From the NCBI RefSeq assembly GCF_900103805.1, contig NZ_FNIB01000004.1, positions 248,001-312,000 of the forward strand: a stretch of DNA of 64,000 nucleotides. Direction: 5' to 3'. Source of the stretch: Cryobacterium flavum. Lineage in GTDB: Bacteria > Actinomycetota > Actinomycetes > Actinomycetales > Microbacteriaceae. The position numbers and the translations under genes are program-made. Below the pieces are notes generated by a model, which ran no database searches, had not been told where the DNA came from, and saw only the letters and a program-made list of their open reading frames with translations. Of the stretch, positions 1,131 through 43,944 are shown one piece after another. Position 1 is the stretch's first letter. Every line of letters starts with the position of its first letter.

Positions 1131-2585
1131 ATGACAATCGCAACGACCGAACGGGCACCCAAGCAGGTCGCCATCAACGACATTGGATCTGCTGAGGACT
1201 TTCTTGCCGCGGTCGAAAAGACTCTGAAATTCTTCAACGACGGAGACCTCATCGAGGGCACCGTCGTGAAGATCGACCGCGACGAGGTTCTCCTCGACGT
1301 TGGGTACAAGACCGAGGGTGTCATTCCCTCCCGCGAACTTTCCATCAAGCACGACGTTGACCCCTCCGAGGTCGTCAAGGTCGGCGACCTGGTCGAGGCC
1401 CTCGTTCTTCAGAAGGAAGACAAAGAAGGCCGCCTCATCCTGTCCAAGAAGCGCGCTCAGTACGAGCGTGCATGGGGCGACGTTGAGAAGATCAAGGAGT
1501 CCGACGGTGTTGTCACCGGTTCGGTCATCGAGGTCGTCAAGGGTGGACTCATCGTCGACATCGGCCTGCGCGGCTTCCTTCCGGCATCGCTCATCGAACT
1601 TCGTCGCGTTCGCGACCTGACCCCGTACCTGGGCCAGGAAATCGAAGCGAAGATCCTCGAGCTCGACAAGAACCGCAACAACGTTGTGCTGTCGCGTCGC
1701 GCCCTGCTCGAGCAGACGCAAAGCGAAAGTCGCACCACGTTCCTCAACAACCTCCAGAAGGGACAGGTCCGCAAGGGCGTTGTCTCCTCAATCGTCAACT
1801 TCGGTGCGTTCGTCGACCTCGGCGGCGTTGATGGTCTGGTCCACGTTTCCGAGCTCAGCTGGAAGCACATTGAGCACGCCAGCGAGGTCGTCGAAGTTGG
1901 CCAGGAAGTCACCGTCGAGATCCTCGAAGTTGACCTCGACCGCGAGCGTGTCTCCCTGTCGCTCAAGGCAACGCAGGAAGACCCGTGGCAGGTATTCGCC
2001 CGCACCCACGCCATCGGCCAGGTTGCACCGGGTAAGGTCACCAAGCTCGTTCCGTTCGGCGCGTTCGTTCGCGTTGCCGAGGGCATCGAGGGACTCGTGC
2101 ACATCAGCGAGCTGTCCGGCAAGCACGTTGAGCTCGCCGAGCAGGTTGTCTCGGTCGGCGACGAGGTCTTCGTCAAGGTCATCGACATCGACCTCGAGCG
2201 TCGCCGCATCTCGCTCAGCCTCAAGCAGGCCAACGATGGCGTCGACCCCGACGGCACCGAGTTCGACCCGGCGCTCTACGGAATGCTCACCGAGTACGAC
2301 GATAAGGGCCAGTACAAGTACCCCGAAGGCTTCGACTCCGAGACCAACGAGTGGCGCGAAGGCTTTGACGAGCAGCGCGAAAAGTGGGAGCAGGACTACG
2401 CTGCAGCCCAGGCTCGCTGGGAAGCCCACAAGAAGCAGGTTTCGACCGCGAACGACGAAATCGCTGCCCCCAGCGACGTCGCACCGGCCGGCTCTGCCTT
2501 CTCGAGCGAGTCGGCTGGCGCCGGCACGCTCGCCGACGACGAAGCACTCGCGGCCCTCCGCGAGAAGCTCTCCGGCGGCAACTAG
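1131..2585 (+). CDS. rpsA: 30S ribosomal protein S1
   Basis: A 484-residue protein with four S1 (OB-fold) RNA-binding repeats and an acidic, Ala/Glu-rich tail, the usual actinobacterial S1 layout. S1 brings mRNA to the 30S subunit. The start at 1131 (M-T-I-A-T-T-E) is chosen because the S1 family begins here and a GGAG lies at 1117-1120; the frame also runs upstream to 1008, but that extension is Cys/Pro/Trp-rich and unlike S1. An intrinsic terminator follows at 2624. In actinobacteria rpsA commonly lies near coaE and uvrB, as here. Confidence 0.97.
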   Translation: MTIATTERAPKQVAINDIGSAEDFLAAVEKTLKFFNDGDLIEGTVVKIDRDEVLLDVGYKTEGVIPSRELSIKHDVDPSEVVKVGDLVEALVLQKEDKEGRLILSKKRAQYERAWGDVEKIKESDGVVTGSVIEVVKGGLIVDIGLRGFLPASLIELRRVRDLTPYLGQEIEAKILELDKNRNNVVLSRRALLEQTQSESRTTFLNNLQKGQVRKGVVSSIVNFGAFVDLGGVDGLVHVSELSWKHIEHASEVVEVGQEVTVEILEVDLDRERVSLSLKATQEDPWQVFARTHAIGQVAPGKVTKLVPFGAFVRVAEGIEGLVHISELSGKHVELAEQVVSVGDEVFVKVIDIDLERRRISLSLKQANDGVDPDGTEFDPALYGMLTEYDDKGQYKYPEGFDSETNEWREGFDEQREKWEQDYAAAQARWEAHKKQVSTANDEIAAPSDVAPAGSAFSSESAGAGTLADDEALAALREKLSGGN

Positions 2586-2894
2586 CAGCACAGCTTCACA
2601 GTTGCGCAGTAAACGGCGCAGGGCGGGCCGCATCCTTCGGGGTGCGGTCCGTTTTTTCGTACGACGTTCGCAAGCGGATGGCGGTCTCGCGACCGCGCGC
2701 AATATCCGATGGTAATTGGTCAGGATCACGACTCACGGAACTCTTCGTGCTATACCTGATAGTGAGGAAACGTCCTCTTTTTTGTCGGCATCACGACAGT
2801 AACAAAATTGTCGAACGGATGTGGATTTCCCTAGTTACAACCTGTTTCTGGTGGGAACGTGCACGACAGCTTCACAGTCCCATCGGAGAGCCCC
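2586..2894. other. Intergenic region rpsA to hybrid kinase-like gene
   Basis: 309 bases without a gene. It holds the rpsA terminator (2624-2657). The remaining 230 bases are comparatively AT-richer and presumably contain the promoter of the gene at 2895; only weak -35/-10 candidates (TTGTCG at 2808, TAGTTA at 2832) are visible. Confidence 0.5.
2624..2657 (+). terminator. Intrinsic terminator of rpsA
   Basis: A 12-pair GC-rich stem (with G-U pairs) around a TTCG tetraloop, followed by six T residues at 2652-2657. Confidence 0.9.
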
Positions 2895-5192
2895 ATGAAC
2901 ACCTTTCACCCTGCAGACAGCGCTGACAACAGGGGCGAAGACGATTTTCAAACCCCTGTGGCACCGTCGGGAAGTCAGAGCTTCACCGACGGTTCTGGTG
3001 CATCGTTGTCGGTTGAAGTGCTCAACGAAAGGTTACGTGACCAGCAGTTTTACACTCGATCGCTGATCGAATCAAACATTGATGCGCTCATGACCACCGA
3101 TACCAAGGGCGTCATCACCGACGTCAATCACCAGATGGTGGCCCTGACCGGGCGCACCCGGGACGAACTCATCGGTGCTCCGTGCCGCAACTTCTTCACC
3201 AATCCGACGCGCGCCGACACCGCCATCGCCCGAGTGTTGAAGGAGGACCGGATCACTGATTACGAGCTGACGGTGCGATCCTTTGACGGCACGGAAACCG
3301 TCGTCTCGTACAACGCGGCCACTCTGCGGGATCGTGAGCGCAGAGTCCAGGGCGTTTTCGCGGCAGCCAGAGACGTGACCGAGAGCAAAAAGTTCGAGCG
3401 CGCCCTCCTCGAGAAGAATTTCGCCATGGAGCAGGCGAATGTTGCTCGGGCCGAGTATCTGACTCGCGCCAAGGTCGAGGTGCTGACACCGCTGCAGGCG
3501 ATCGTTTCTTCGGCCAAGGCGCTGAGCAGTGGGGTTGACGGTACGTTGAACGAGGTGCAGCAACGCAGAGTCGACGGCATCTGCGCTGACACCGCCCACC
3601 TGCTGTCCTTGCTCAAAGAACTCATCAGCATGTCCACGGTTGAAACCGGCAACGTCGACTTCTACTATGAACTCGTCGCCGTGCACGGCCTGCTGGTCGC
3701 CAGCGCCGCGTTGGTCGATCAGAGCGGAGACCCCGCAGTTTCGGTCGCTGTCAACGGTACTGAGCAGGTGGGGGACTTTCCGCTCGACACCGACACCACC
3801 GGACAGATTCTGGCGGTCCTGCTGGGCAATGCCGTTATTGCCAGCAAGGGCGAGGACGTATCCGTGCAGGCGCGGATTGTGCCGCGCAGTTCCGTCGGCT
3901 TCCTCGACGGACATCGCCCACACTGGTCGTCACCTTTACCAGAGTTCGGTTTTGCGGAGTTTCTGGAAATTCGAGTGACGGACTCCGGGGTCGGAATCTC
4001 CGAGGCGGATCTGCCTGCCTTGTTCCTTCCCCTGCGACACGGGGAATTCGACGCCGCGTGGAAGTCAAGCGGCAACGGCGTAGGCCTGGCCATGGTGAAA
4101 TTGCTGGCCGAGCTGCAAGAGGGCAGGGTCGGTGTGGAGGGATCTCTGAACGAAGGCGCAACCTTCGGCGTCTGGTTGCCGCGCCATGATCTGTCCGCAG
4201 CGACGGCCCAACCGTCACTGACCGCGGAAAGCAATACTGAGCGAGCAGAGATCCGCGCGGAGAACTCCGATGCATCATTCGAACCAGAACGGGCAGAGTC
4301 CGACGCCGGCCGCGAGCCCGAGAACGACAATGGCGACGCGCTGCTTCAACACGCCACGCAGGATCTGATCGCGGCGGCCAATGCTGACTCGAATGTCGAC
4401 CGTCAGGGTTTCTCGCAGACAGTCGCGGGTTCGACTGTCCCGAGCGGAAGCCCGACGGCTTTGGTGGTTGAGGACGACGCCAAATCCGCCAAGCTCGTTC
4501 GGTTGCTCCTGGAAGCAGAAGGCTTCCAGGTGATTGCAGCGGCAAGCGGCGAGGAAGCGCTCGATCTCGCACAGGGAGTGCCGCTAAGCCTGATCACCCT
4601 CGACGTGCAGCTGCCGGGAATGGACGGCTGGAAGTTTCTACTGAAGCTCCACGATTCTCCGGAACTGGCCTCCATCCCCGTCGTGGTCATTGCCGGATTG
4701 GCCGACATGAGTATGGCATTAAGTCGCGGTGCCGCGGCTGTGCTCGAAAAGCCGCTGCAGCGGGTCGAATTGCAGAACTCGCTCACCCTGCTTGGGTTAC
4801 GCCCTGACCGGGCACATACACGGTGCATCCTCATTGTCGATGAAGACCGCCAAACCGTCGACCAGGTCACTTCGTATTTGGAAGAGCCGGCCTACCGCGT
4901 CGAATCCTCGTCGTCGGGCGAGGCCGCCATCTCTGATGCGCTCAAGTTGACGCCCGACCTGATTCTGATCAATCTCATGATGGAGCACCTCGGCGGGTTC
5001 AAGATTGTGCGGGCGCTGCAGGACCATGCCAGTACTCAGTACATTCCGGTGCTGGTCCTGTCGGCGGGAAAGATCACCGACGATGAACAGGACACGATCG
5101 ACAGCGACCCGGCCCAGCCCGTCGTGACAATGAACAAACCCGACTTCAATCGGGACGCGCTCCTGGCAGAGATCAAACGGGCTCTCGACTGA
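2895..5192 (+). CDS. PAS / degenerate histidine kinase / double receiver protein
   Basis: 765 residues. Order: PAS domain (about 47-161); HisKA-like helices; HATPase_c with an N-box Asn312, the D-S-G-V-G-I box (Asp363) and a G-N-G-V-G-L lid (393); a variable linker; receiver 1 (about 521-635, Asp570 and Lys619 present); receiver 2 (about 644-765). The H-box that should read His-Glu-x-x-Thr-Pro reads V-E-V-L-T-P, with Val194 at the phospho-acceptor position, and receiver 2 has Asn693 in place of the phospho-Asp. The ATP-binding half looks intact. Start 2895 is preferred over GTG 2859 because GGAGAG precedes it. It probably senses a signal through PAS and acts in a phosphorelay or as a pseudokinase scaffold; the partner is unknown and no response regulator gene is adjacent. 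Confidence 0.88.
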   Translation: MNTFHPADSADNRGEDDFQTPVAPSGSQSFTDGSGASLSVEVLNERLRDQQFYTRSLIESNIDALMTTDTKGVITDVNHQMVALTGRTRDELIGAPCRNFFTNPTRADTAIARVLKEDRITDYELTVRSFDGTETVVSYNAATLRDRERRVQGVFAAARDVTESKKFERALLEKNFAMEQANVARAEYLTRAKVEVLTPLQAIVSSAKALSSGVDGTLNEVQQRRVDGICADTAHLLSLLKELISMSTVETGNVDFYYELVAVHGLLVASAALVDQSGDPAVSVAVNGTEQVGDFPLDTDTTGQILAVLLGNAVIASKGEDVSVQARIVPRSSVGFLDGHRPHWSSPLPEFGFAEFLEIRVTDSGVGISEADLPALFLPLRHGEFDAAWKSSGNGVGLAMVKLLAELQEGRVGVEGSLNEGATFGVWLPRHDLSAATAQPSLTAESNTERAEIRAENSDASFEPERAESDAGREPENDNGDALLQHATQDLIAAANADSNVDRQGFSQTVAGSTVPSGSPTALVVEDDAKSAKLVRLLLEAEGFQVIAAASGEEALDLAQGVPLSLITLDVQLPGMDGWKFLLKLHDSPELASIPVVVIAGLADMSMALSRGAAAVLEKPLQRVELQNSLTLLGLRPDRAHTRCILIVDEDRQTVDQVTSYLEEPAYRVESSSSGEAAISDALKLTPDLILINLMMEHLGGFKIVRALQDHASTQYIPVLVLSAGKITDDEQDTIDSDPAQPVVTMNKPDFNRDALLAEIKRALD

Positions 5193-5240: not shown

Positions 5241-5906
5241 ATGTATCTGATTGGGCTGACCGGCGGAATCGCCTCGGGCAAGAGCACCGTAGCACAGCGT
5301 CTCAGTGAGCTGGGCGCCGTCGGGATCGACGCCGACCGTCTCGCCCGCGAAGTTGTTGAACGCGGCACCCCGGCACTGGCGGCGATTGCTGAAGAGTTCG
5401 GCTCCGACCTGTTGCTGCCCGACGGCAGCCTGAACCGGCGGGCGCTTGGCGCCATCATCTTTACCGACCCGGTGCGGCGAGAACGGCTGAATGCCATCAC
5501 GCATCCGGCGGTGCGACAGCTCACCCGCGACCGGGTGGCCGAAGCCGCTGCGGCTGACCCGCACGCCATCGTCGTCTACGACGTTCCGCTGCTGGCCGAA
5601 GCCAAGGCCGGCGGCCTGGTCACGTTTGACGTGATCGTCGTCGTGCACGCGGATGCTGCCACCAGAATCCAGCGCATGGTGGACCTGCGCGGCCTGACCC
5701 GCGAGGACGCGACCCATCGCATCTCGGCGCAGGCCAGTGACGCAGAACGTCTGGCTCTGGCCGACGTCGTGATCGACAACACGGGTGGCCTCGACGCGAC
5801 ACTGATTCAGGTTGACGCGCTCTGGGAGGGCGTGCTCACTGCCGAGGCCGACAAGAGTGCGGCGAGCGCCGGCATTCGCTCGCAGGGGTCGAGCGCGCAA
5901 AGCTGA
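5241..5906 (+). CDS. coaE: Dephospho-CoA kinase
   Basis: 221 residues; catalyses the last step of coenzyme A synthesis, phosphorylating the 3'-OH of dephospho-CoA with ATP in the cytosol. The P-loop G-G-I-A-S-G-K-S-T is at residues 8-16, and the family motifs D-A-D and I-T-H-P follow. The Ala/Ser-rich C-terminus is about 15 residues longer than the minimal enzyme. It lies 29 bases upstream of uvrB, but each gene has its own potential -10, so they need not be one operon. Confidence 0.96.
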   Translation: MYLIGLTGGIASGKSTVAQRLSELGAVGIDADRLAREVVERGTPALAAIAEEFGSDLLLPDGSLNRRALGAIIFTDPVRRERLNAITHPAVRQLTRDRVAEAAAADPHAIVVYDVPLLAEAKAGGLVTFDVIVVVHADAATRIQRMVDLRGLTREDATHRISAQASDAERLALADVVIDNTGGLDATLIQVDALWEGVLTAEADKSAASAGIRSQGSSAQS

Positions 5907-5935: not shown

Positions 5936-7999
5936 ATGGAACCCACGCGCTCTGTGAATCCGTTTGAAGTGGTCAGTGAGTACACGCCGAGCGGCGACCA
6001 GCCGGCGGCGATCGCCGACCTGGCTGCCCGAATCAATGCCGGCGAAACCGACATCGTGCTGCTTGGTGCTACCGGTACCGGTAAGTCCGCCACGACGGCC
6101 TGGCTGATCGAGCAGGTGCAACGCCCGACGCTCGTTCTGGCCCACAACAAGACCCTCGCGGCGCAGCTGGTCAATGAGTTCCGCGACCTCATGCCCAACA
6201 ACGCGGTCGAGTACTTCGTTTCGTATTACGACTACTATCAGCCCGAGGCCTACGTTCCGCAGACCGACACTTTTATCGAGAAGGACTCTTCGATCAACGA
6301 GGAAGTCGAACGATTGCGGCATTCCACCACCAACTCGTTGCTGAGCCGCCGGGACGTGATCGTGGTGTCGACGGTGTCGTGCATCTACGGTCTCGGTACG
6401 CCGCAGGGCTATCTCGATGCCATGATCGCCCTGCAGGTCGGTCAGAAGGTCAGCCGCGACTGGTTGGTGCGCAAATTTGTGGCCATGCAGTACAAGCGCA
6501 ACGATGTCGATTTCTCGCGGGGCAATTTCCGGGTGCGCGGCGACACCATCGAGATCATCCCGATGTACGAAGAGCTCGCTATTCGCATCGAGATGTTCGG
6601 CGACGAGATCGAAGGCCTGTACAGCCTGCATCCGCTCACCGGCGATATCGTCAAGAAGCTCGACTCGGTCTCGGTGTTTCCTGGCTCGCACTACGTTGCG
6701 AGCGATGACGTTATGCGTCGGGCGATCGGTACCATCGAGATCGAACTGGCCGAACGCCTCGAAGTGCTCGAACGTGAAGGCAAGCTGCTCGAAGCCCAGC
6801 GACTGCGTATGCGCACCACCTTCGACCTCGAGATGATGGAGCAGATCGGATTCTGCTCCGGCATTGAGAACTACTCCCGCCACATCGATGCGCGCGAACC
6901 GGGGGAGGCCCCGCACTGCCTGCTGGACTATTTTCCCGACGACTTTCTCATGGTCATCGACGAGTCGCACGTGACCGTGCCGCAGATCGGTGCCATGTAT
7001 GAGGGCGACTCCTCGCGCAAGCGCACCCTGGTCGACCACGGCTTTCGCCTGCCGAGCGCGCTCGATAACCGTCCGCTCAAGTTCAACGAGTTCAAGAATC
7101 GGGTCGGCCAGACGGTGTACCTGTCGGCGACGCCCGGCAAGTACGAGATGGGCATTGCGGATGGCATTGTCGAGCAGATCATCCGCCCGACCGGCCTGAT
7201 CGACCCGCAGATCATCGTGAAGCCGAGCAAGGGCCAGATCGACGACCTGCTCGAAGAGATCAAGAAGCGCACCGAACGCAACGAGCGGGTGCTGGTCACA
7301 ACGCTCACCAAGAAGATGGCCGAGAACCTTACCGACTTTCTCACTGAGGCCGGCGTGCGGGTACGTTACCTGCACTCCGATGTCGACACCTTGCGCCGGG
7401 TCGAGTTGCTCACCGAACTGCGCGCCGGCATTTACGACGTACTCGTCGGCATCAACCTGCTGCGTGAGGGCCTCGACCTGCCCGAGGTGTCGCTCGTCGC
7501 CATTCTCGACGCCGACAAGGAGGGTTTCCTGCGCTCGGCGACGTCCCTTATTCAGACGATCGGGCGTGCCGCCCGTAACGTGTCCGGCGAGGTGCACATG
7601 TACGCCGACCGGCTCACCGCCTCGATGGAGAAGGCGATCGACGAGACCGACCGTCGGCGAGAGAAGCAGGTTGCGTACAACACCCTGCACGGCATCGACC
7701 CGACCCCGCTGCGCAAACGCATTGGCGACATCACCGAAGCGCTCGCTCGCGAGGAGGCCGACACCGCCGAGCTCCTGGCCGGCCGCGATGCCCGGCGCAA
7801 GACGTCGACGCCCAACCGTCGGGTCGGCCTAGCCGCCAACGGTGCCAACGATCTGGAGTCGATCATCGCCGACCTTAACAGACAGATGCTCGAGGCCGCC
7901 GGAGAGCTCAAGTTCGAGCTCGCCGCCCGTCTGCGCGATGAGCTCTCTGAACTCAAGCGCGAACTCCGCCAGATGGAGAAGGCCGGCCACCTGCAGTAG
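5936..7999 (+). CDS. uvrB: UvrABC excinuclease subunit B
   Basis: 687 residues, normal length. UvrB is the damage-verification helicase of nucleotide excision repair, loaded by UvrA and bound by UvrC. Visible: N-terminal G-D-Q-P-A-A-I, Walker A G-A-T-G-T-G-K-S, the [10 protein letters not shown] beta-hairpin that clamps DNA, helicase motif V/VI region [10 protein letters not shown] and Q-T-I-G-R-A-A-R, and a C-terminal UVR coiled-coil motif that contacts UvrC. uvrA and uvrC lie 4.5 kb downstream, separated from uvrB by the minus-strand padR-ABC operon. Confidence 0.98.
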
Positions 8000-8016
8000 C
8001 CGCCGGTCGCACACCC

Positions 8017-8086
8017 CTCGTGGCACGTGTTTGGGAAGCTGGCACTGGTTCAAACACGTGCCAACGTCTCAAGCGAGTGCCACGAG
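8017..8086. repeat. Symmetric four-half-site inverted repeat
   Basis: Between the convergent uvrB and ABC permease genes. TGGCAC occurs at 8021-8026 and 8040-8045, and its complement GTGCCA at 8058-8063 and 8077-8082, all symmetric about 8051/8052 and spaced 19 bases on each side. In addition TGGCACGTGTTTG (8021-8033) is perfectly complementary to 8051-8063, allowing an alternative hairpin, and CTCGTGGCA (8017-8025) matches TGCCACGAG (8078-8086). There is no T-run, so it is not a standard terminator. Confidence 0.8.
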
Positions 8087-8106
8087 AGCGGATGCCGCCG
8101 GCCGGG

Positions 8107-10950
8107 TCAGTCGAACGCGGCCCGGTTGCTGAAGCGGGTGCGGTTACTGCCGGCCGTGAGTGCACCGCCGACCGCCACGAGCGCCGGGAGCGCCACCACG
8201 ATCAGGGCAAGTTGCAGCCACGGGGGAGTGAACGGCAGCAGCGAGAGCCCCGCCGTGTCCCGGGTCAGCGACAGCGCGAGTGTCGGCACCAAACCGAGCA
8301 GCACCCCAATGACGCTGCCGAGGCCCACGATCACCACGGCCTGCCAGAACCCGAAGGCCTGGCGCACCCGCGGTGATGCCCCAAGGGAGGTGAGCACGGC
8401 ATTGTCTCGGTGCCCATCGGCGCGGGCGAGTCCGATGGTGATCGACGCCGTGACCAGGGCGATGATCGCCGTCAAGGCGAGCAGGGCCCAGGTCCAGGTC
8501 GCTCCATACGCCTCCGGGCCCGTCTCCGTTTGCAGGTTGAACCCCGGCGAAATGGCGGCGAGTGCACCTTGGGCATGGTCATCTTCTGCCTGGGTCGGGC
8601 TCGCGCCGATGCTGCTGACGACCATTGACGGCCGGTAGTTCAGGTTTGACGCGTCGGCCGTGGACGTCAGCATGAAAACGGCGTAAGGCAGCGGATTCTC
8701 GGGCTCCTGCACGCTCCCGGCCAGTGACACGCTGCGAGCTGGCTCCAGAACGGAGTTGAGCTCCGTGACCCAGTCGATACGGATTTCTCCGTCAACGACG
8801 TACTGCTCATAGGTAGCGACACCTCCACCAGCGGTGAGCGTTGCTCGGGACTCCGCCGACACGGGTCCGCCAAGAATCGCGGCGAAGTCCGCCAGATCGC
8901 CCACCCAGATGTGGTCGTTGATACTCGAGTTCATCATCGTGTCGAGAAAGTACGGAGTAGGGCAGCGGATGTCGGTAGGCGTGTCCTCATGACTGGCATC
9001 CATTCGAGTTGCATCACTCGGGCACACCGTGTCGGCGTCGATCCGTGGGTAGGCGAAGGTGGACGCATCCGCGGTTGTCCCGTCGGCAGCCGCGTCGCCG
9101 AAGCCCATCGGCGGGTCCTCTGTACTTCTTAGCAGTCTGGCCTGAGCGCTCGGAAAACTGCTCTCAACGGCGGCAACGACGTCGGGCCCCGTGGTTTGCA
9201 ACACTCGGCCGTAGGGCGGCTCATTCTGTGTAGTCATGAGACTCACCGATGCTGTGTTCAGCGGGGCGCTGTAGGTGTAGCCACTGGTCGAATTCACCTG
9301 CATCGTTGAAATGAGACTCATCGCAAAGGTCGCCACGAAGACGCAGCTCATGATGGCCGCGAGTGCCGGTACGCTCCGCCCGGGGTTTCGCGCCACATCG
9401 CGGGTCGCAAGCCGTGCGCCTGGTCCGAACCGGGATGCCACGCGGGCAGCCCACCGCAGAATCAGGGGAGCGATGAAGACCGCCCCGATCTGCATGATCA
9501 CAGGGCCGGCGACAATGAGGGCGATCCCGAAGTTGGCCAGTGCTATCTGGTAAACGGGTGCGTAGGCGGCGAGCTCGACCACTCCGCCGGTGACGGCGAT
9601 GACCGCACCGAGGGCCAGTAGAACGAGTCCAGCAACCGGGCGGCGGCGCGTGACCCGCGGCGGGCGCTGGGCACCACGCAGGGCGGCCAAAACGTCGATC
9701 CGGCCGGCAGCCCGGGCCGGAACCGCGGCAGCGCACCAGCCGGCGAGCACAGCGAAGACCGCGATGACGAGCAGCGACACCAGATCGAGGTGAAACCCCG
9801 GATACCGGGCCGCGCTGCCGTTCGCCGAAATCTGCATGAAGATCCAGGCGCCGGCGAGGCCGAGTACGGTTCCCAGTGCCGCTCCGAGGGCGCCGAGGAT
9901 GACGCCGCCGAAGGACATGACGCGAAACAGCATCCGCTTGTCGCCGCCGACGCTCGCGAGGGTCGCGAGAGTGCGCTGCTGGGTGCGGGCGCCGACGGTA
10001 AAGGCGGCGCCCGCGAGCAGGGCCACCTCGAACAGGGCGAATCCGCCGAGCAGGGCGATGAACAAGTTCATGGAGGTGTTCGAGGTATCGCCATAGCTAT
10101 AGCTGTAGCTGCCCACCGGCGGCGGGTCGAGCAGAACGGTGCGCGACAGCACGGTGGCACCGCGCGGGTTGAGCTCGCCGATCTGGCTCCAGGTGAGCGG
10201 GGTGTCGGGCAAGTACCACTCAGTTAGCAGGTCGTCATCGTCGGGCATTACGCCGTCGAAGACTGCGGGCATGCCGTAGAACGATACCGCAGCGTCGTCG
10301 AGACTCGCGGTGTGAATCGTGCCAACAATGGTGAATGATTCGGCGATAGGCGCCGTGATCACGGCCTTCGACCCGATCTTTGCTCCGAGCCGTTCGAGGG
10401 CGGCAGCGGTCACCATGATCTCGTCGTCAGCGGTCGGTCGTGTTCCCGCCGTCACATCCCATTTTCCGACGAAGGACGGGTCCCACGGCTGTCCCTGCAC
10501 GGCCGGAAACGACCCGAGCCCGTCTTTCGTCTCCACCACGACGGCGGTCGATCGAATGGAGAGCAAACGGGTGTCGGCGGTAAACAGCGAAGCAACCGTG
10601 ACGGGCTGCGGCTCGATGGACTGCGCGGCATCGGCACGCGCCGCCTCGTCGCGGTAGCCCCAGTGCCCGTCGTTCAGCGGGTCTTGGGTGAATTTCGCGT
10701 CCGGCGCTGCGACGATTCTGACCCGCGCCTCGGTCGACCCGAGCTCGAGCTTGACACGTTCGGCGGGGGTCGCGACATTGCTCGCGGTTACCGTGGTGAT
10801 TCCGACCATCCCGAGCACCGGAATCGCGACGAGCAGAGCGATCAACGCGCTGCGACCGCGTGATTGCCCGGCCATACGGCGAGCAATCCGAAACGCAATG
10901 AGCGTTCCACCCGAGCGTTTGCCCGCAAGCGACCCCCCGTCACCACTCAT
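8107..10950 (-). CDS. FtsX-like ABC transporter permease
   Basis: 947 residues. N-terminal membrane helix (G-R-S-A-L-I-A-L-L-V-A-I-P-V) followed by a large extracytoplasmic domain, then an FtsX-type bundle of three helices in mid-protein, a second ectodomain and a second three-helix FtsX bundle at the C-terminus: a fused double-FtsX permease as in MacB/BceB-like exporters and peptide-antibiotic detoxification systems. The start at 10950 overlaps the stop of the ATPase gene (ATGA), which fixes it against the longer frame reaching 11043. The pair plausibly exports or expels a lipid or antimicrobial under PadR control; the substrate is unknown. Confidence 0.93.
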   Translation of the reverse strand: MSGDGGSLAGKRSGGTLIAFRIARRMAGQSRGRSALIALLVAIPVLGMVGITTVTASNVATPAERVKLELGSTEARVRIVAAPDAKFTQDPLNDGHWGYRDEAARADAAQSIEPQPVTVASLFTADTRLLSIRSTAVVVETKDGLGSFPAVQGQPWDPSFVGKWDVTAGTRPTADDEIMVTAAALERLGAKIGSKAVITAPIAESFTIVGTIHTASLDDAAVSFYGMPAVFDGVMPDDDDLLTEWYLPDTPLTWSQIGELNPRGATVLSRTVLLDPPPVGSYSYSYGDTSNTSMNLFIALLGGFALFEVALLAGAAFTVGARTQQRTLATLASVGGDKRMLFRVMSFGGVILGALGAALGTVLGLAGAWIFMQISANGSAARYPGFHLDLVSLLVIAVFAVLAGWCAAAVPARAAGRIDVLAALRGAQRPPRVTRRRPVAGLVLLALGAVIAVTGGVVELAAYAPVYQIALANFGIALIVAGPVIMQIGAVFIAPLILRWAARVASRFGPGARLATRDVARNPGRSVPALAAIMSCVFVATFAMSLISTMQVNSTSGYTYSAPLNTASVSLMTTQNEPPYGRVLQTTGPDVVAAVESSFPSAQARLLRSTEDPPMGFGDAAADGTTADASTFAYPRIDADTVCPSDATRMDASHEDTPTDIRCPTPYFLDTMMNSSINDHIWVGDLADFAAILGGPVSAESRATLTAGGGVATYEQYVVDGEIRIDWVTELNSVLEPARSVSLAGSVQEPENPLPYAVFMLTSTADASNLNYRPSMVVSSIGASPTQAEDDHAQGALAAISPGFNLQTETGPEAYGATWTWALLALTAIIALVTASITIGLARADGHRDNAVLTSLGASPRVRQAFGFWQAVVIVGLGSVIGVLLGLVPTLALSLTRDTAGLSLLPFTPPWLQLALIVVALPALVAVGGALTAGSNRTRFSNRAAFD

Positions 10951-11693
10951 GCCTGTAGTCCGGCCAACAGGCTCGATACAGCGGATGCCCGCGACTCGTC
11001 CACGATGCGCCCGTCGCGTAGAAAGACGATCCGGTCCGCCCACGCCGCGTGGCGGGCATCGTGGGTGACCAGAATGCCGCCGGCACCGGCACCGGCGTCG
11101 ACTCGGGAGCGCAGCATCCGCAAGACGAGTTCACCGGTCGTGCTGTCGAGGGCGCCGGTGGGCTCATCGGCGAGAATCAACGACCGACCGCCGACGACCG
11201 CGCGGGCAATGGCGACGCGCTGCTGCTGGCCACCGGACAGGTCAGAGGGAAAATGCCCGGCCCGGTCACCGAGCTCGACGATAGTGAGGGCGTCGAGGGC
11301 CGGGCGGTGCGCCTTCTTCGAAGTCCAGCCGTCGAGTTCGAGCGGCAGGCTCACGTTTTCGAGCGCGGTCAACGAGGGAATCAGGTTGAAGTCCTGAAAG
11401 ACGAAGCCGAGGCTGCGGCGACGCAGCGTCGCGAGCTCGCGGGCCGAGAGCTGGCTGAGCCAGTGCCCTTCCACGACGACCTCGCCCGACGTCGGAGGGG
11501 TGAGTCCGCCGGCCACGGTGAGCAGCGTCGACTTTCCCGAACCGGATGCCCCCATCACCGCCACAAGCTCGCCGCGGCTCACCGACAGGTCGACGCCAGC
11601 CAGGGCCGTGATCGCGGTCTCGCCCCGGCCGTACTGCATCGAGACACCGTCGAGCTGCAGCAGAATGTCGCTGTCAGCGGCGTGGCCGGTCAT
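10947..11693 (-). CDS. ABC transporter ATP-binding protein (MacB/LolD type)
   Basis: 248 residues with Walker A G-A-S-G-S-G-K-S-T, Q-loop, signature L-S-G-G-Q-Q-Q-R-V-A-I-A-R-A, Walker B L-I-L-A-D-E-P-T-G-A-L-D and the switch His. This is the nucleotide-binding partner of the FtsX permease encoded next; the family uses ATP hydrolysis for mechanotransmission or lipid/peptide extrusion. It is coupled at both ends by 4-base ATGA overlaps (with padR at 11690-11693 and with the permease at 10947-10950), so the three genes form one operon. Confidence 0.95.
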   Translation of the reverse strand: MTGHAADSDILLQLDGVSMQYGRGETAITALAGVDLSVSRGELVAVMGASGSGKSTLLTVAGGLTPPTSGEVVVEGHWLSQLSARELATLRRRSLGFVFQDFNLIPSLTALENVSLPLELDGWTSKKAHRPALDALTIVELGDRAGHFPSDLSGGQQQRVAIARAVVGGRSLILADEPTGALDSTTGELVLRMLRSRVDAGAGAGGILVTHDARHAAWADRIVFLRDGRIVDESRASAVSSLLAGLQA

Positions 11694-12298
11694 GCGTTGG
11701 CCTGCACCGTCTTGGCCGGTCGTCCGCGCTTGGGAACGTCTGTGTTGAGCGGCAGGGGATCGGCGAGACCGGCGGCTCGCGCCCGGGTGAGCCGGCTTTC
11801 GGAGTGATCGAGCCAGCGCACCTCGGCCTCGGCCGCGAAGATGAGAGAATCGATCACGAGCAGCCAGGCCAGCTGCTCCGACGATTCCGGGTCAGCGGTA
11901 GCGTTCTTGGTGCGCGTCAGTTCCTGCAGGGTGCGCATTGTCGCGGTGCGCTGCACCTGAATCACCTGGGCAATATCCACGCCGGGCAGCGTGACCGCAA
12001 TCGCAAGCTTGATCGCGAGCTCGTCGCGGGTCGCCATGGTGCGCACCACGGGGGAGCCGAGCCACTCGGCGACCTCCGCGCGGCCGGCATCCGTTATCTC
12101 AACGTAGTTCTGACCATCGGCGTCAATGTCGGCCTTCTGCACCAGGCCGTCCCGCTCGAGCCGGTCGAGGGTGTTGTAGATCTGGCCGACGTTCAGCGGC
12201 CAGGTCGACCCGGTCCGACGGTCGAACTCGGCCCGCAACTGGTAGCCGTAGCACGGCCCCTGGTTCAGGATGGCGAGAAGACTCTGGCGAACGGACAT
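11690..12298 (-). CDS. PadR family transcriptional regulator
   Basis: 202 residues. The N-terminal winged helix begins S-V-R-Q-S-L-L-A-I-L and contains the PadR signature G-Y-Q-L-R-A-E-F and the wing G-Q-I-Y-N-T-L-D-R-L-E-R-D-G-L-V; the C-terminal half is the Vir-like helical dimerisation region. A GGAGG ribosome binding site lies 3-8 bases upstream of the ATG. It is the first gene of the padR-ATPase-permease operon, so it most likely represses its own operon and responds to the transporter's substrate. The C-terminus is Arg/Pro-rich (K-R-G-R-P-A-K-T). Confidence 0.95.
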   Translation of the reverse strand: MSVRQSLLAILNQGPCYGYQLRAEFDRRTGSTWPLNVGQIYNTLDRLERDGLVQKADIDADGQNYVEITDAGRAEVAEWLGSPVVRTMATRDELAIKLAIAVTLPGVDIAQVIQVQRTATMRTLQELTRTKNATADPESSEQLAWLLVIDSLIFAAEAEVRWLDHSESRLTRARAAGLADPLPLNTDVPKRGRPAKTVQANA

Positions 12299-12332
12299 AC
12301 GACCTCCGATAATTCGACGCTGCTAATAATTA

Positions 12333-12365
12333 CCGAGTATATACATACCCGGCAATCCGACGTAA
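12333..12365 (-). promoter_or_regulatory. padR operon promoter with pseudo-palindromic operator
   Basis: On the minus strand a TATACT -10 (12336-12341) lies 18 bases from TTACGT (12360-12365). It is embedded in the imperfect palindrome CCGAGTATATACATACCCGG (12333-12352), a likely PadR dimer site that would block RNA polymerase directly. Confidence 0.45.
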
Positions 12366-12491
12366 GAAATCGTTGCGGGTGTCGCCGAAGTCACGACTCT
12401 GTGCAACGGCCTCGCGGCGGCACAACACATGCCATGAGCGCAATCCGCAGGTGAAAGGCGTCGCCGGTACAAGACTGTCAGCGGCGTTGCA

Positions 12492-12497
12492 TAGACT
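12492..12497 (+). promoter_or_regulatory. -10 hexamer for leaderless uvrA
   Basis: TAGACT ends 6 bases before the GTG start of uvrA at 12504. No ribosome binding site and no recognisable SOS box are present. Confidence 0.45.
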
Positions 12498-12503
12498 CGA
12501 TGT

Positions 12504-15371
12504 GTGTCGATTACCAAGGTAGAAACAGGTCCGAAACTCAGTGTGCGCGGAGCCCGCGTGCACAATCTCCACAACGTGGATCTGGAGATTCCACGCGACT
12601 CGCTCGTGGTCTTCACCGGACTGTCGGGGTCGGGAAAGTCGTCGCTCGCCTTCGACACCATCTTCGCCGAGGGCCAGCGCCGCTACGTCGAGTCACTCTC
12701 GGCCTACGCCCGGCAGTTCCTCGGCCAGGTCGACCGGCCCGACGTCGACTTCATCGAGGGCCTGAGCCCGGCCGTGTCGATCGACCAGAAATCCACCAAC
12801 CGTAACCCGCGGTCCACGGTCGGTACCATCACCGAAATCTATGATTACATGCGCCTGCTCTGGGCCCGCATTGGCGTGCCCCACTGCGCCATCTGCGGCG
12901 AGATCATCCAGTCTCAGACCGTGCAGCAGATCGCCGACCAGCTCATGGAACTGAAGGCTGGCATTCGCTACCAGGTGGTCAGCCCGGTCGTCTCGCAGAA
13001 GAAGGGCGAGTTCGTCGACCTGTTCCAGGAACTGGCTGGCGGCGGCTACTCCCGCGCGATTGTCGATGGCACTCAGATTCAGCTGAGCGAACCGCCGATT
13101 CTCAAGAAGCAACAGAAGCACGATATCGCGGTCATCGTCGACCGGCTCGTCGCCGGCCCTGAGCTGCTTTCCCGCCTCACCGACTCGCTTGAAACAGCCC
13201 TCAAACTCACCGACGGGCTCGTGCAGATCAATTTTCTCGACGAAGAGGGCGACAAGGCCTGGCAGAACTACTCCGAGAAGCTGTCCTGCCCGAATAACCA
13301 CCCGGTTCAGCTCACCGAAATTGAACCGCGCACCTTCTCCTTCAACGCGCCGTTCGGCGCCTGCCCGGAGTGTTCAGGGCTCGGAACCCGCATGTCCGTC
13401 GATGAAGACCTGTTGCTCGGTGACCCCGATCTGAGCATCGCCGAGGGTGTCGTGCTGCCCTGGACCACCCAGGGCAAGGGCCTGTTCCAGTACTACGAGA
13501 AGCTGCTCGACGGCCTCGCCCGCGACCTCGACTTCTCGCTGGACACGCCCTGGGGTGAGCTCACCACCGAGGTACAGAACGCCGTCATGCGCGGCGACAA
13601 CTTTGAGGTGCGGGTCAAGTGGAAAAACCGCTACGGCCGGGAGATGAGCTACACCTCCGGGTTCGAGGGTGTTGTGCCCTACATTGAACGCCAGTACCTG
13701 CAGGCCGACAGCGACACCCAGCGTCAGCGCTGGTCCGAATACCTGCGTGAGGTCGACTGCCACGTCTGCAACGGCACCAGGCTCAAGCCCGAGGTGCTCG
13801 CCGTGCTCGTTCACGAAGCGAGCATCGCGGATGTCTGTGCACTCAGTTTGGCCGACGCTCGCGCGTTCATGGACAAGCTCACCCTCACCGACCGGGAGGC
13901 CGCCATCGCCGCCCAGGTGCTGCGCGAGATTCGGGCACGCCTCGACTTTCTGATTCGGGTGGGCCTGAACTACCTCAACCTGTCCCGGGCCGCGGCGACC
14001 CTCTCGGGCGGTGAGGCGCAGCGCATCCGCTTGGCGACGCAGATCGGCTCAGGGCTCACCGGCGTGCTCTACGTGCTCGATGAACCCAGCATCGGCCTGC
14101 ACCAGCGCGACAACCGGCGCCTGATCGAGACCCTCGTGACCCTGCGCGACCTCGGCAACACGCTCATCGTGGTCGAGCACGACGAAGACACCATTAAGAC
14201 CGCCGACTGGATCGTTGACATCGGCCCTGGCGCCGGCGTTAATGGCGGGCACGTCGTGCACTCCGGCTCCTACGAAGGCCTGCTCGCCAACACCAAGTCC
14301 CTTACCGGCGACTACCTGGCCGGGCGCAAGTCCATCGCCATCCCGAAAACCCGACGCCCGATCGACCCTGAGCGCCTGATCGGCGTCACCGGCGCCGAGG
14401 CCAACAATCTGCAGAAAGTGTCGGTGACCTTCCCGCTCGGCACCTTCACCGCGGTCACCGGGGTGAGTGGCTCCGGCAAATCTTCGCTCGTCAATGACAT
14501 CCTCTACCGGGTGCTCGCCAACCGGCTCAACGGCGCCCGCAAGCTGCCGGGCAAGCACACCAGGGTCACAGGCCTCGAGCAGCTCGACAAGGTCATCCAC
14601 GTCGACCAGGCGCCCATCGGCCGCACGCCACGCTCCAACCCAGCCACCTACACCGGTGTGTTCGACAAGATCCGCACCCTGTTCTCGGAAACCATCGAAT
14701 CGAAGACCCGCGGTTACCTCCCCGGCCGGTTCAGCTTCAACGTCAAGGGCGGGCGCTGCGAAGCCTGCTCGGGGGACGGCACCATCAAGATCGAGATGAA
14801 CTTTCTGCCCGACGTTTACGTCGCGTGCGAGGTGTGCGGGGGAGACCGTTACAACCGCGACACCCTCACCGTGCACTACAAGGGCAAGAACATCGCGGAG
14901 GTACTCGATATGCCGATCAGCGAGGCGGCCGACTTCTTCGAACCGATCTCGTCGATCCATCGCTTCCTCAAGACCCTGGTGGAGGTCGGACTCGGCTACG
15001 TACGCCTCGGTCAGAGCGCCACCACCCTGTCCGGCGGCGAAGCTCAGCGGGTGAAGCTCGCGACCGAGCTGCAGCGGCGTTCCAACGGCCGCAGCGTCTA
15101 CGTGCTCGATGAGCCCACCACCGGGCTGCACTTCGAAGACGTGCGCAAACTGCTGCTCGTGCTCAACAGCCTCGTCGACAAGGGCAACACCGTCATTGTC
15201 ATCGAACACAACCTCGACGTCATCAAGTCTGCCGACTGGGTCATCGACCTCGGCCCGGAGGGCGGTTCCGGCGGCGGTAAGGTACTCGCCATCGGTACGC
15301 CGGAGCACCTCGCCACGGTCAAGACGAGCTTCACCGGTTCCTTCCTGAAGGAGGTCCTGGCTGCCGGCTAG
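12504..15371 (+). CDS. uvrA: UvrABC excinuclease subunit A
   Basis: 955 residues, GTG start. UvrA is the dimeric damage-recognition ATPase of nucleotide excision repair. Two ABC modules are visible: the first with G-L-S-G-S-G-K-S-S and [10 protein letters not shown], the second with G-V-S-G-S-G-K-S-S and [10 protein letters not shown]. Zinc-binding Cys pairs occur at C-A-I-C, C-P-E-C, C-H-V-C and C-E-A-C/C-E-V-C. The gene is followed after 14 bases by uvrC and is divergent from padR. Confidence 0.98.
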
Positions 15372-15385
15372 GCGGCCTCACGGCC

Positions 15386-17278
15386 ATGTCTGATGCCCTG
15401 AGCTATCGCCCGAAAACGGGCGAGATTCCCACGACCCCCGGGGTCTACCGTTTTCGCGACGCGACCGGGCGTATCCTTTATGTCGGTAAGGCCAAGAACC
15501 TGCGGGCTCGGCTGAGCAACTATTTCGCCCCCCTCCACAGCCTGCACGAACGCACCCGCCGCATGGTCACCACGGCCACCGGCGTCGAGTGGACTGTCGT
15601 CGGCACCGAGGTCGAGGCCCTGCAACTCGAATGGATGTGGATCAACGAGTTCGATCCGCCGTTTAACGTGCAGTTCAAGGACGACAAGTCCTACCCGTAC
15701 CTCGCGGTCACCCTCGCCGACGAGGCGCCGCGGGCCTTGGTCACCCGCACCGAGGGCATCAAGGGTGCCCGCTATTTCGGGCCGTACCCCAAGGTCTGGG
15801 CCGTTCACGAGACCATCGAGCTCATGCTCAAGGCCTTCCCCATCCGTACCTGCAACAACGCCAATTACAAGCGGGCCATGCAGAGCGGCAAGCCGTGCTT
15901 CGCCGGCCAGATCGGGCGGTGCTTTGGCCCCTGCTCCGGACTGGTATCGATCGAGGACCACCGCACGATCGTCAACGAGTTCGTCAGCTTCATGGGCAGC
16001 CACGACAAGAAGCTCATCAACGAACTCACCCAGCAGATGAAGGACGCCGCCTTGGCGCAGAAGTATGAGATCGCTGCGAAACGACGCGACCAGGTGCGAG
16101 CGCTCAACGCCGTGCTCGAGAAGAGCGCCGTCGTGCTGCGCGACAACGTCGACATCGACCTGTTCGCGGTCGAGCAGGACGAACTCGCAGCCGCCGTGCA
16201 GCTGTTCATCGTGCGCGGCGGGCGCATCCGTGGTGTGCGCGGCTGGATGGTCGACAAAGAACTCGACGTCACCAGGAGCGAACTCATCGATTCCATGATG
16301 CAGACCGCCTACAACCACGACGCCCTGCCGCCGCGCGAAATCGTACTCCCCGAACTGCCCGACGATGCCGAAGCCCTCGAAACCTGGCTGGCCGACCTCG
16401 CCGGTCGCAAGGTGCGCCTCGTGGCAGCGCAGCGCGGGGAGAAGGCTGCCCTGCTGGTCACAGCCGGCAACAACGCCAAGCAGGCGCTCATGCTCTACAA
16501 AACCCGTCGCAGCTCGGACTTCGTGGCACGCTCCAAAGCGCTCGAAGACATCCAGGACGCTCTCGAAATGCCAGCCGCCCCGCTGCGAATGGAATGCTAC
16601 GACGTATCGCACCTCAGCGGCACCAACATCGTCGCGTCCATGGTCGTCTTCGAAGACGGGCTTCCCCGCAAAGACGAATACCGCCGCTTCAACATTCCCG
16701 AATCAACCGACGACACCGACTCGATCTACCAGATCCTCACCAGAAGACTGGCCTACCTGAAGCCCGAAACATTGGCAGCGGATGCCGTGGTCGTTGACGC
16801 CACTACGACCGACATCATTCAGGTCGAACAGAAGCGTGCCAAATTCAAATACCAGCCAAACCTGCTCATCGTCGACGGAGGCCAGCCGCAGGTTGCCGCC
16901 GCCAAACGGGCCCTCGCCGAATCGGGCGTCACCGGAATTCAACTGTGCGGAATCGCCAAACGGCTTGAAGAAATCTGGCTCCCCGATTCCGACTACCCGG
17001 TAATCCTGCCGCGCAACAGCGACGCGCTGTTTCTGATCCAGCGCATTCGTGATGAAGCCCACCGGTTCGCAATCACCCACCAGCGCATTCGGCGCAAGAA
17101 AGACATCAGCTCGATTCTCGGCGAAATCGCGGGGCTCGGGCCGGCCCGGGTGAAAGTTCTGTTGCAACATTTCGGCTCGGTGGCGCGCCTCAAGGTCGCT
17201 TCGGCGGCCGAAATAGCGGATGTCCGCGGCATCGGCCGCGTGCTGGCCGAGTCCATCCACGCGCACCTGCGCTCCTAA
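15386..17278 (+). CDS. uvrC: UvrABC excinuclease subunit C
   Basis: 630 residues. UvrC makes both incisions flanking the lesion. Order: GIY-YIG nuclease (G-V-Y-R-F ... L-Y-V-G-K-A-K-N-L) at the N-terminus for the 3' cut, a Cys-rich region with C-F-G-P-C, a UVR motif that binds UvrB, the RNase H-like UvrC domain (E-C-Y-D-V-S-H and V-D-G-G-Q-P-Q) for the 5' cut, and tandem helix-hairpin-helix motifs at the C-terminus. It sits 14 bases after uvrA and is very likely co-transcribed with it. Confidence 0.98.
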
Positions 17279-42526: not shown

Positions 42527-43944
42527 AGGTTGGTGGCCTTGCGGAACAGGGCGAGCTGGGTCGGGGAGCCGAGTTCGACGTCGACGTCGCCGACCGTGCG
42601 GTACTCGACCGAGTAGCCGCGGCGAGCCGCGACTTCAGCCGCCCAGGCAGCGAATTCGGCCCTGGACCACTCGAATCGGTGATCGCGGTGCCGGAACGAG
42701 CCGGCGGGCAAGGACTCATACCGGGCATTGAAGTCGGCGTTCGGCGTTGTCACGATAACCGCGCCGGGAGCGGCTGCTCCGAACACGGCCGACTCGAGCG
42801 CCGGGAGCCGCTCCAGGTCGAGGTGCTCGATCACCTCCATCAGCACGATCGCGTCGAGGCCGGCGATGCGGTCGTCCTGGTACGTCACCGACGACTGCGC
42901 GAGGTGCACCCTCTCGTGCTGTCTATCACTGGCCTCACGCAAGTTGAGCGTTCGCGCAGCCTTGACCAGAACGCTCGCCGAGACATCGCAGCCGATGATC
43001 GTCGTGAACGCAGCTTCCGCGCTCAGGCGCTTCAGCAGCGTGCCTTCGCCGCATCCGACATCGGCTACCGTGTGCGCTCCGACGTCGTGCAGGGCCGTGA
43101 GCACGGCCTCGGCGCGCTGCTGGGCCAGCGGTGCCGAGCCGGACTGCTCGCTCGGCTCTGCCAGCTCGGGCGCAGGCAAGTCGTCTAGGTCGTTCAACCG
43201 GGTGTCCGCGGAAAGCCGTGCTGTGGCCTCGTTGACCATCGACGGCTGATGCGCCAGGTAGCGGCGCGTGATGAGTTCGCGCTCGGGGTGGTGAGGCAGC
43301 CAGCCAACGCCTGCGCGCAGGAGCTTGCCGATTTCGTCGTCCGACACCCAATAGTGCTTGGCGTCGTCGAGCACGGGCAGCAGCACATAAAGGTGCCGGA
43401 GCGCGTCGCTGAGCCGGACCTCACCGCGCAGCACGAGGTCAACGTAGACGGAATCGCCCCACTCCGGGAACGCCGGGTCCAGCGGGATCGGCGTCTCAGT
43501 GACGGACCAGCCGAGCGGTTCGAACAGTCGCGTGACGAGGCCGGCGGTGTCGCGGCCCCTGGCCGGCACGGCCGCCACGGTGATCTCGAGGGGTAGCGCG
43601 GATGCTGCGAGCTCGGGAAACGACTCGCTCGTCCCGTTCATGGCCGTGCGGAAGACCTGGCCCAGCGCGACGGCGACCATGGAGGAGGACGCATATGGAC
43701 GGTCGTTCACGTAACGGGCGAGTGTGGCCGCGTCGCTTCCCCGGAAGCGCTTGTCGCGCACCAGACCGATGGGGTCGACTTCGAGGATCAGCGCTACCGT
43801 GCAACGTTCATCGGACACCTCAGGGTAGAAAACGTGCGCTGTTCCGACACTCAGCGGAAATGCCTGCGCTCGATCCGGGTGCTTGCGAAGCAGGTGGCTC
43901 AGATTGGATGCGGCGGGCGCGGTCGAGGTGACGGTGACGAGCAC
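42523..43944 (-). CDS. hen1: 3'-terminal RNA ribose 2'-O-methyltransferase Hen1
   Basis: 473 residues, GTG start with GAAGGAAGG 6-14 bases upstream. The N-terminal half is the bacterial Hen1 domain that contacts Pnkp and activates its ligase; the C-terminal half is an AdoMet methyltransferase with D-V-G-C-G-E-G-T (295-302) and the Mn-binding set Glu370, Glu373, His374 (M-E-V-I-E-H) and His422 (H-R-D-H-R-F-E-W). It 2'-O-methylates the 3' end of a cleaved RNA before sealing, which protects the repaired junction from being cut again. Coupled to pnkp by an ATGA overlap. Confidence 0.95.
   Translation of the reverse strand: MLVTVTSTAPAASNLSHLLRKHPDRAQAFPLSVGTAHVFYPEVSDERCTVALILEVDPIGLVRDKRFRGSDAATLARYVNDRPYASSSMVAVALGQVFRTAMNGTSESFPELAASALPLEITVAAVPARGRDTAGLVTRLFEPLGWSVTETPIPLDPAFPEWGDSVYVDLVLRGEVRLSDALRHLYVLLPVLDDAKHYWVSDDEIGKLLRAGVGWLPHHPERELITRRYLAHQPSMVNEATARLSADTRLNDLDDLPAPELAEPSEQSGSAPLAQQRAEAVLTALHDVGAHTVADVGCGEGTLLKRLSAEAAFTTIIGCDVSASVLVKAARTLNLREASDRQHERVHLAQSSVTYQDDRIAGLDAIVLMEVIEHLDLERLPALESAVFGAAAPGAVIVTTPNADFNARYESLPAGSFRHRDHRFEWSRAEFAAWAAEVAARRGYSVEYRTVGDVDVELGSPTQLALFRKATNL

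Follow-up and report, generated by a model that had tools for sequence, protein, structure and literature searches.

The stretch of DNA analysed here (the window) comprises 64,000 nucleotides from a cold-living bacterium, Cryobacterium flavum (source genome, G000), and carries at positions 2895 to 5192 of its forward strand a gene for a 765-residue protein with the domain order PAS, degenerate HisKA/DHp, HATPase (CA), REC1, REC2. Judged by its sequence, this gene, here called the A type, is a conserved pseudo-histidine kinase: the phospho-acceptor His of the H box is replaced by Val194, the second receiver has Asn693 in place of the phospho-acceptor Asp, and the loss of the His is common to all full-length orthologues. 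Its parts are as follows.

2885..2889, + strand: Shine-Dalgarno-like GGAGA, 5 nt upstream of the ATG at 2895
2895..5192, + strand: pseudo-hybrid histidine kinase (A type), 765 residues, from translation, Pfam and orthologues
3081..3383, + strand: PAS domain, residues 63-163 (Pfam)
3423..3659, + strand: DHp (HisKA-like) helices, residues 177-255, His lost
3474..3476, + strand: codon of Val194, in place of the phospho-acceptor His
3483..3485, + strand: codon of Leu197, where the H box usually has Arg
3792..4184, + strand: HATPase_c/CA domain, residues 300-430 (Pfam, fold)
3828..3830, + strand: Asn312, the N-box Asn, kept in 6/6 orthologues
3981..3995, + strand: G1 box DSGVG, residues 363-367, intact in the window protein
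4071..4085, + strand: G2 box GNGVG, residues 393-397, three Gly in 6/6 orthologues
4461..4784, + strand: REC1, residues 523-630 (Pfam)
4602..4604, + strand: Asp570, phospho-acceptor of REC1
4821..5189, + strand: REC2, pseudo-receiver, residues 643-765 (Pfam)
4971..4973, + strand: Asn693, in place of the REC2 phospho-acceptor Asp

Active-site residues of the kinase core and receivers

Receiver active sites and the named kinase boxes are assigned, throughout, as is usual for these protein families. Val194 lies between Lys193 and Glu195, and Leu197 precedes Thr198. These two substitutions, together with Asp570 and Asn693, had been read from the letters alone in an initial annotation of the window, and translation and alignment confirm all four. 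Across the six full-length orthologues (source copy included) the His column reads V, V, V, V, V and R, the Arg being that of G049, such that the His expected of an active HisKA histidine kinase is present in 0/6; the Arg of the H box is likewise missing from all six, and the replacements Arg191, Ala192 and Leu197 are themselves fixed in every one. By comparison, His occupies the H box in 61/61 non-Cryobacterium rows of the alignment and in 24/24 rows of Cryobacterium paralogues whose H box is aligned (numbered genomes, among which G034 enters three times, with one gene fetched twice). Because all six full-length orthologues lack the His, Val194 is not an error, and sequencing error or isolated decay at this position was rejected on the agreement of six genomes. 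The dimerisation helices of these orthologues share no alternative conserved His: His235 of the window protein is present in only 3/6, and G006 contains no His at all across residues 160-255, so a substitute acceptor of this kind was also rejected. Degeneracy of this sort is rare but documented, the consulted portion of one survey giving a missing His in 0.9% of HisKA domains (722 of 76,471) and a missing Asp in 2.0% of receivers (3,111 of 152,269) (PMC12632262).

The ATP-binding boxes had initially been described as intact, which held for G1, G2 and Asn312 of the window protein and failed for the remainder of the N box, where the canonical Asn308, Lys315 and Phe316 are changed to Val, Ile and Ala and are lost in all six orthologues. 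Gly365, Gly367, Gly393, Gly395 and Gly397 are kept in 6/6; the nearest orthologue, G006 (C. aureum), has His in place of the G1 residue Asp363 and is also the closest named relative found, with 85% identity across the protein. Pfam recognises HATPase_c at 46.3 bits (cut-off 26.4), a PAS domain and two Response_reg stretches, and HisKA at only 20.7 bits, under its cut-off of 26.9. Of 142 NCBIfam families matched at E<=0.1, the best 25 all fell under their own cut-offs, and membership of a named curated kinase family was rejected on that ground. AlphaFold2, given an input alignment of 38 sequences, predicted the PAS domain, two long DHp helices, a CA sheet whose lid (381-394) is of low confidence, and two receivers; at a mean predicted local distance difference test score (pLDDT) of 70.5 and a predicted template modelling score (pTM) of 0.40, the predicted arrangement of domains is unreliable. 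Among the best 50 Foldseek matches, histidine kinases are at the top and plant phytochromes also rank high; full-length ShkA (6qrj) is 2nd and a DivL chain (4q20_B) 49th. The HATPase_c match, the model and the structure matches together make the DHp/CA fold recognisable.

REC1 is retained in all 15 orthologous copies described below. Asp570 is present in 14 of these (Glu in G053), including all six full-length ones, in which the acidic pair E526 and D527 and K619 are also invariant. The Thr/Ser switch position is Ala600, as in most Cryobacterium paralogues; among 61 non-Cryobacterium homologues it is Ser in 31, Ala in 11, Thr in 4, Gly in 1 and unaligned in 14. The second acidic residue of REC1 is altered in 5/9 truncated copies (E, N, N, N and T in G013, G033, G037, G053 and G028, respectively). 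A test of the DHp-docking face of REC1, based on identity to the paralogue by secondary-structure element, gave no useful contrast. REC2 lacks the phospho-acceptor Asp, as a pseudo-receiver does, with Asn693 in 6/6 full-length copies and in three of the four truncated copies that keep the position (Asp in G026). None of the full-length orthologues retains His or Asp at the two sites, Val194 standing in five and Asn693 in all six. Neither outcome named in the initial annotation as refuting it, orthologues with His and Asp at these sites or a phosphorylated His elsewhere in the dimerisation helices, was thus borne out.

Paralogues and the order of the losses

The source genome contains a paralogue with 47% identity to the A type (contig C27, 162180-164402), in which an SHELRTPLNA box and the N box are intact. 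The two proteins share the PAS-DHp-CA-REC-REC order and an Asn in REC2; the paralogue differs in an N-terminal region about 150 residues longer, in a gene for a REC-REC protein that directly follows it, and in tighter constraint everywhere. Mean identity between the A type and the paralogue is highest in PAS (73%, measured over residues 40-176), followed by REC1 (63%), REC2 (47%), CA (39%) and DHp (34%).

Loss of the His and loss of the Asp had initially been taken as one combination, a view that did not survive comparison with the paralogues, given that Asn693 recurs in a group with an intact SHELRTPLN box. This group (B1; Cryobacterium, His-bearing) has Asn in REC2, while a further set of paralogues (B2; in G011, G021, G012, G025, G046 and G032) has Asp, as do 32/32 non-Cryobacterium rows with an aligned REC2, one of which (L091, 1840) is a more distant kinase. 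Since Asn693 is common to the His-bearing B1 paralogues, it is older than the loss of the His, and the two events are separate; most simply, the sequences suggest that Asp changed to Asn while the ancestral protein was still His-bearing, the His being lost later in the copy between rpsA and coaE.

In a quick version of the gene tree, the six A copies group together with support of 85 (100 when an extra G047 copy is included). When the tree is rooted with the non-Cryobacterium rows, another His-less hybrid kinase, the C type, falls beside the A copies with support of 95, on a very long branch, and one shared loss of the His for the A and C types is possible. The C type is a paralogue at another locus (L047 of G011, 2265-4742; L048 of G021, 2131-4986), with an H box reading ARDLG or ARELG; the G011 copy is interrupted in REC2. 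The extra G047 copy (L049, 3651-5003) is a tandem PAS-kinase-only gene beside the full one, without His and very fast evolving. At another locus in G025 (L046, 3139-4476), a 445-residue open reading frame matches only the REC1-REC2 half, with 49% identity and Asn in REC2, and is another kinase-less relative.

Relatives that carry the His are common in Polaromonas, Variovorax, Massilia, Pseudomonas and similar genera (L058-L130, named genomes). Of 299 Microbacteriaceae genomes, four matched at E<=1e-60, all of them Cryobacterium, and two of the six Cryobacterium in that draw had no match at this threshold. The presence of relatives in those genera, yet of matches only in Cryobacterium among the sampled Microbacteriaceae, suggests that the parent kinase was acquired by horizontal transfer. 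A plasmid-borne presence was rejected, as tblastn against 72,556 plasmid records returned zero matches at E<=1e-60. The sole Pfam Hpt match in the source genome at E<=0.001 (C22, 107527-107748) lies on a contig different from those of both paralogues, and this protein is a possible phosphorelay link.

Selective constraint and domain shedding between rpsA and coaE

Ratios of nonsynonymous to synonymous substitution rates (dN/dS) were pooled over 15 pairs from the six full-length species. In the A type these were 0.09 for PAS, 0.21 for DHp, 0.26 for CA, 0.10 for REC1 and 0.14 for REC2, as compared to 0.03, 0.03, 0.07, 0.03 and 0.06, respectively, for the His-bearing paralogue of the same species. 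All A-type domains are thus more relaxed than those of the paralogue, and the ranking of domains differs: DHp is among the tightest in the paralogue, with PAS and REC1, and among the loosest in the A type, with CA, where PAS and REC1 are tightest. For the unsaturated G000/G006 pair, tests of nonsynonymous against synonymous change gave p=2.6e-5 (DHp), 1.8e-7 (CA), 4.8e-10 (PAS), 4.3e-4 (REC1) and 0.022 (REC2). Values well under 1 in every domain argue against simple decay, and the conserved loss of the His together with purifying selection is the pattern of a pseudo-histidine kinase.

The gene is flanked by the following features.

1143..2585, + strand: rpsA, for 30S ribosomal protein S1, to the left of the insertion site (NCBIfam)
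2625..2657, + strand: possible rpsA terminator hairpin and T run (by eye)
5241..5906, + strand: coaE, for dephospho-CoA kinase, to the right of the insertion site (NCBIfam)

The rpsA frame opens at a GTG at 1008, and the 480-residue form served as query; uvrB lies beyond coaE, these names being given by NCBIfam matches over cut-off. The hairpin is absent from the list of the scan tool; if it is a terminator, separate transcription of the A-type gene is implied. The GGAGA 5 nt upstream supports ATG 2895 as the start codon, and by pattern matching the start region, an ATG behind a CCATCGGAG-type sequence, is common to all 15 A copies.

Of 57 Cryobacterium genomes surveyed, 55 have rpsA and coaE on a single contig (G045 had no coaE match, and in G029 the two are on different contigs). 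An A-derived gene lies between them in 15/55. By subtraction, the intervals in the remaining 40 are about 690-1650 bp in six, which were fetched and gave no match, and about 90-270 bp in the others. Six copies are full-length (G000, G006, G047, G014, G019 and G049); the other nine are truncated, with PAS and kinase gone. In five of the latter, REC1 remains along with all or part of REC2 (G050, G026, G036, G013 and G018, the last with an internal deletion within REC2), and in four it remains with mere scraps of REC2 (G033, G037, G053 and G028). Starting at the shared ATG, the reading frame stays open across REC1 in 14/15 copies, or 8/9 of the truncated ones.

The breakpoints of the PAS-kinase deletion are distinct among G050, G036/G018 and G013/G033/G037/G053/G028. 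Since full-length species (G049, G014) separate these three breakpoint sets on a tree of rpsA, uvrB and coaE, some of whose deep branches are weak, at least three deletions of PAS and kinase are likely. G026 has a breakpoint like that of G036/G018 and is placed elsewhere on the tree with weak support. REC2 was cut three further times, in G018, in G033/G037 and in G053/G028, the last of which may extend the G033/G037 cut. All six deletions keep the frame at first reading, for which the chance expectation is (1/3)^6, about 0.0014, a figure to be read with the caveats that breakpoints come from a protein alignment, that G026 is out of frame and G033 frameshifted near its end, and that copies were found via REC1, which favours readable ones. 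REC1 remains under constraint after truncation, with a pooled dN/dS (omega) of 0.25 in three truncated sister pairs (p=5.4e-10). This domain-shedding series is the novel part of the findings; the pseudokinase itself is of a known kind.

Elsewhere in the window, uvrB, uvrA and uvrC lie together within about 12 kb on the downstream side of the A-type gene (5936-17278), and genes for Pnkp (kinase-phosphatase-ligase) and Hen1, a bacterial RNA-repair pair, are adjacent at 39971-43944 on the reverse strand. Rfam at gathering cut-offs gave zero matches in the window.

Proposed function, alternatives and known systems

The initial proposal of a pseudokinase is upheld at the level of sequence by the absence of the His from 6/6 orthologues, the lack of another conserved DHp His and purifying selection. 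We consider it probable, from these data and from analogy, that the A type arose by duplication of a hybrid histidine kinase, lost its autokinase chemistry and is kept as a signalling adaptor acting in trans via REC1. In such a scheme, the PAS domain, with its 73% identity, would sense the same cue as that of the paralogue, the dead DHp/CA core would mainly hold a dimer or scaffold, and REC1 would be the working output; REC2 would be a pseudo-receiver inherited from the ancestor common with the paralogue. The target of the protein would be a genuine kinase, the His-bearing paralogue on C27 being the likeliest, and its action would take one of two forms: REC1 might take phosphate from the His of the partner kinase, as a phosphate sink, or might dock on that kinase and block it. 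A phosphate route to the first receiver, which had also been envisaged initially, may thus run from another kinase. In G013, G033, G037, G053 and G028, docking with little or no phosphorylation appears the more likely of the two, because the second acidic residue is changed in 5/5 and Asp570 is Glu in G053. The paralogue is the most likely partner because of the shared PAS sequence and because a His-bearing relative occurs in 14/15 A-bearing genomes versus 9/42 others (H box read in 22 of these 23 paralogue-bearing genomes, G036 excepted). More tentatively, and at less than even chance, the locus may trace a route from kinase to inhibitor, comprising duplication, loss of the His, in-frame excision of PAS and kinase at least three times, and receivers that dock independently of phosphate.

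Several observations weigh against the adaptor reading. Many of the dS values are near saturation. G013 has a REC1-REC2 copy but no paralogue match, and the paralogue therefore cannot be the sole partner; the co-occurrence is moreover confounded by phylogeny, and 7/9 of the paralogue-bearing genomes without an A copy hold a more distant kind. A truncated ChrS pseudokinase showed no significant heterodimerisation in the portion of the report consulted, which is unhelpful to a heterodimer model (PMC9491836). Gradual loss of the locus may, furthermore, be under way in some of the clade, because the G026 frame is broken 70 residues past the shared start, G033 has a frameshift near its 3' end, the site is empty in G034, a member of the clade (a 209 bp interval), and the truncated pair G033/G037 alone gives an omega of 0.59; REC1 active-site positions are also changing in the G013 clade. 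These same features, along with the relaxation of all A domains relative to the paralogue and the progressive truncation, would be expected from slow pseudogenisation of a redundant duplicate in which the kinase was lost first, piecemeal deletion followed and conservation is the residue of recent function. We regard this as unlikely, given the frame from the shared ATG through REC1 in every copy except G026, the pooled dN/dS significantly under 1 in truncated sister pairs, and the fixation of Arg191, Ala192 and Leu197 in 6/6 despite near-saturated synonymous sites.

A phosphatase-only kinase, in which the dead core dephosphorylates REC1 or a receiver of the paralogue through the [E/D]xxT motif that follows the missing His, with ATP as cofactor (mechanism 2 of RetS), is to be doubted to a similar degree. 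The motif is kept in 4/6 orthologues (EVLT, EILT, DLLT and DLLT), as are Asn312 and the Gly residues of G1 and G2 in all six, and as far as the cited excerpts go, the His contributes to HisKA phosphatase activity without being essential (PMC12632262), while RetS requires the Thr of its HExxT (PMC5992135). However, the motif is broken in G006 (Thr198 to Arg, in addition to Asp363 to His) and in G049 (Glu195 to His), constraint is weakest in DHp and CA, 9/15 copies have no core, and DivL is described as lacking phosphatase activity on DivK~P (PMC4211667). The nucleotide-switched pseudokinase of the initial annotation, in which ATP on the CA domain would move REC1 and REC2 without phosphorylation, is less probable still. 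It would account for the retention of N312 and the five Gly, for the HATPase_c score over the Pfam cut-off and for the predicted CA fold, but it is weakened by the lack of Asp363 in the nearest orthologue, and Asn308, Lys315 and Phe316 are lost in all six; nor can ATP binding readily be a conserved core function of a locus whose CA domain is the loosest and in which 9/15 copies have no kinase. DivL, in the text cited, binds an ATP analogue weakly (PMC4211667). Least credible, and in our estimation very improbable, is an active kinase with an unconventional phospho-acceptor elsewhere in the dimerisation helices, for which the presence of His235 and the reported autophosphorylation of RcsD, which has no conserved His (PMC3762810, as partly consulted), might be adduced; the inconstancy of His235, the His-free helices of G006 and the nine copies without a core speak against it.

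The adaptor reading, if correct, bears on what a pseudokinase is kept for and by which part. An active paralogue, a full pseudokinase and its cut-down descendants coexist in close species, and such natural variants make both matters directly testable; in-frame loss of the kinase is further suggested as an origin of single-domain receivers. Titles and abstract openings yielded nothing on this gene family in a literature coverage that mostly excludes subscription journals, and none of the papers naming Cryobacterium and histidine kinase concerns such a kinase by title and abstract opening. DivL of Caulobacter is not known to have receivers of its own. It resembles the A type in combining PAS with a DHp/CA core whose His is replaced, and in the consulted text is kept as a non-enzymatic, pure signalling hub, unlike the A type in having Tyr at that position and in reading an external receiver, DivK~P (PMC4211667). 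The ChrS pseudokinase of Corynebacterium glutamicum is likewise actinobacterial and beneficial alongside a paralogous kinase, native ChrS and HrrS being reported to heterodimerise, although it arose by a CA frameshift in laboratory evolution (PMC9491836, in part).

RetS of Pseudomonas aeruginosa is, in the sections consulted, a hybrid kinase with two receivers that has no autokinase activity and acts on another kinase, taking phosphate from, dephosphorylating and inhibiting GacS, with one receiver as phosphate sink (PMC5992135). The chemistry is nearly reversed, however: RetS keeps an intact HExxT with its H-box His and has a degenerate ATPase, whereas the A type has lost the His and mostly kept the ATP boxes, and the sink is REC2 in RetS, while it is REC1 that keeps its Asp here. 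ShkA of Caulobacter (PMC7010744; PDB 6qrj) shares the DHp-CA-REC-REC order and a single pseudo-receiver, but by the account given in the portion seen is an active kinase in which that pseudo-receiver is REC1 rather than REC2. The truncated copies are reminiscent of Osp, a lone receiver without the acidic pair that inhibits CckA unphosphorylated, and of the shortened DivL of Rhodobacterales, a degenerate kinase whose core was lost in a lineage (PMC9430884, partial text). Osp and DivL are separate genes there, and the shortened DivL keeps its PAS; at the A locus, a single gene has lost PAS and kinase and kept the receiver.

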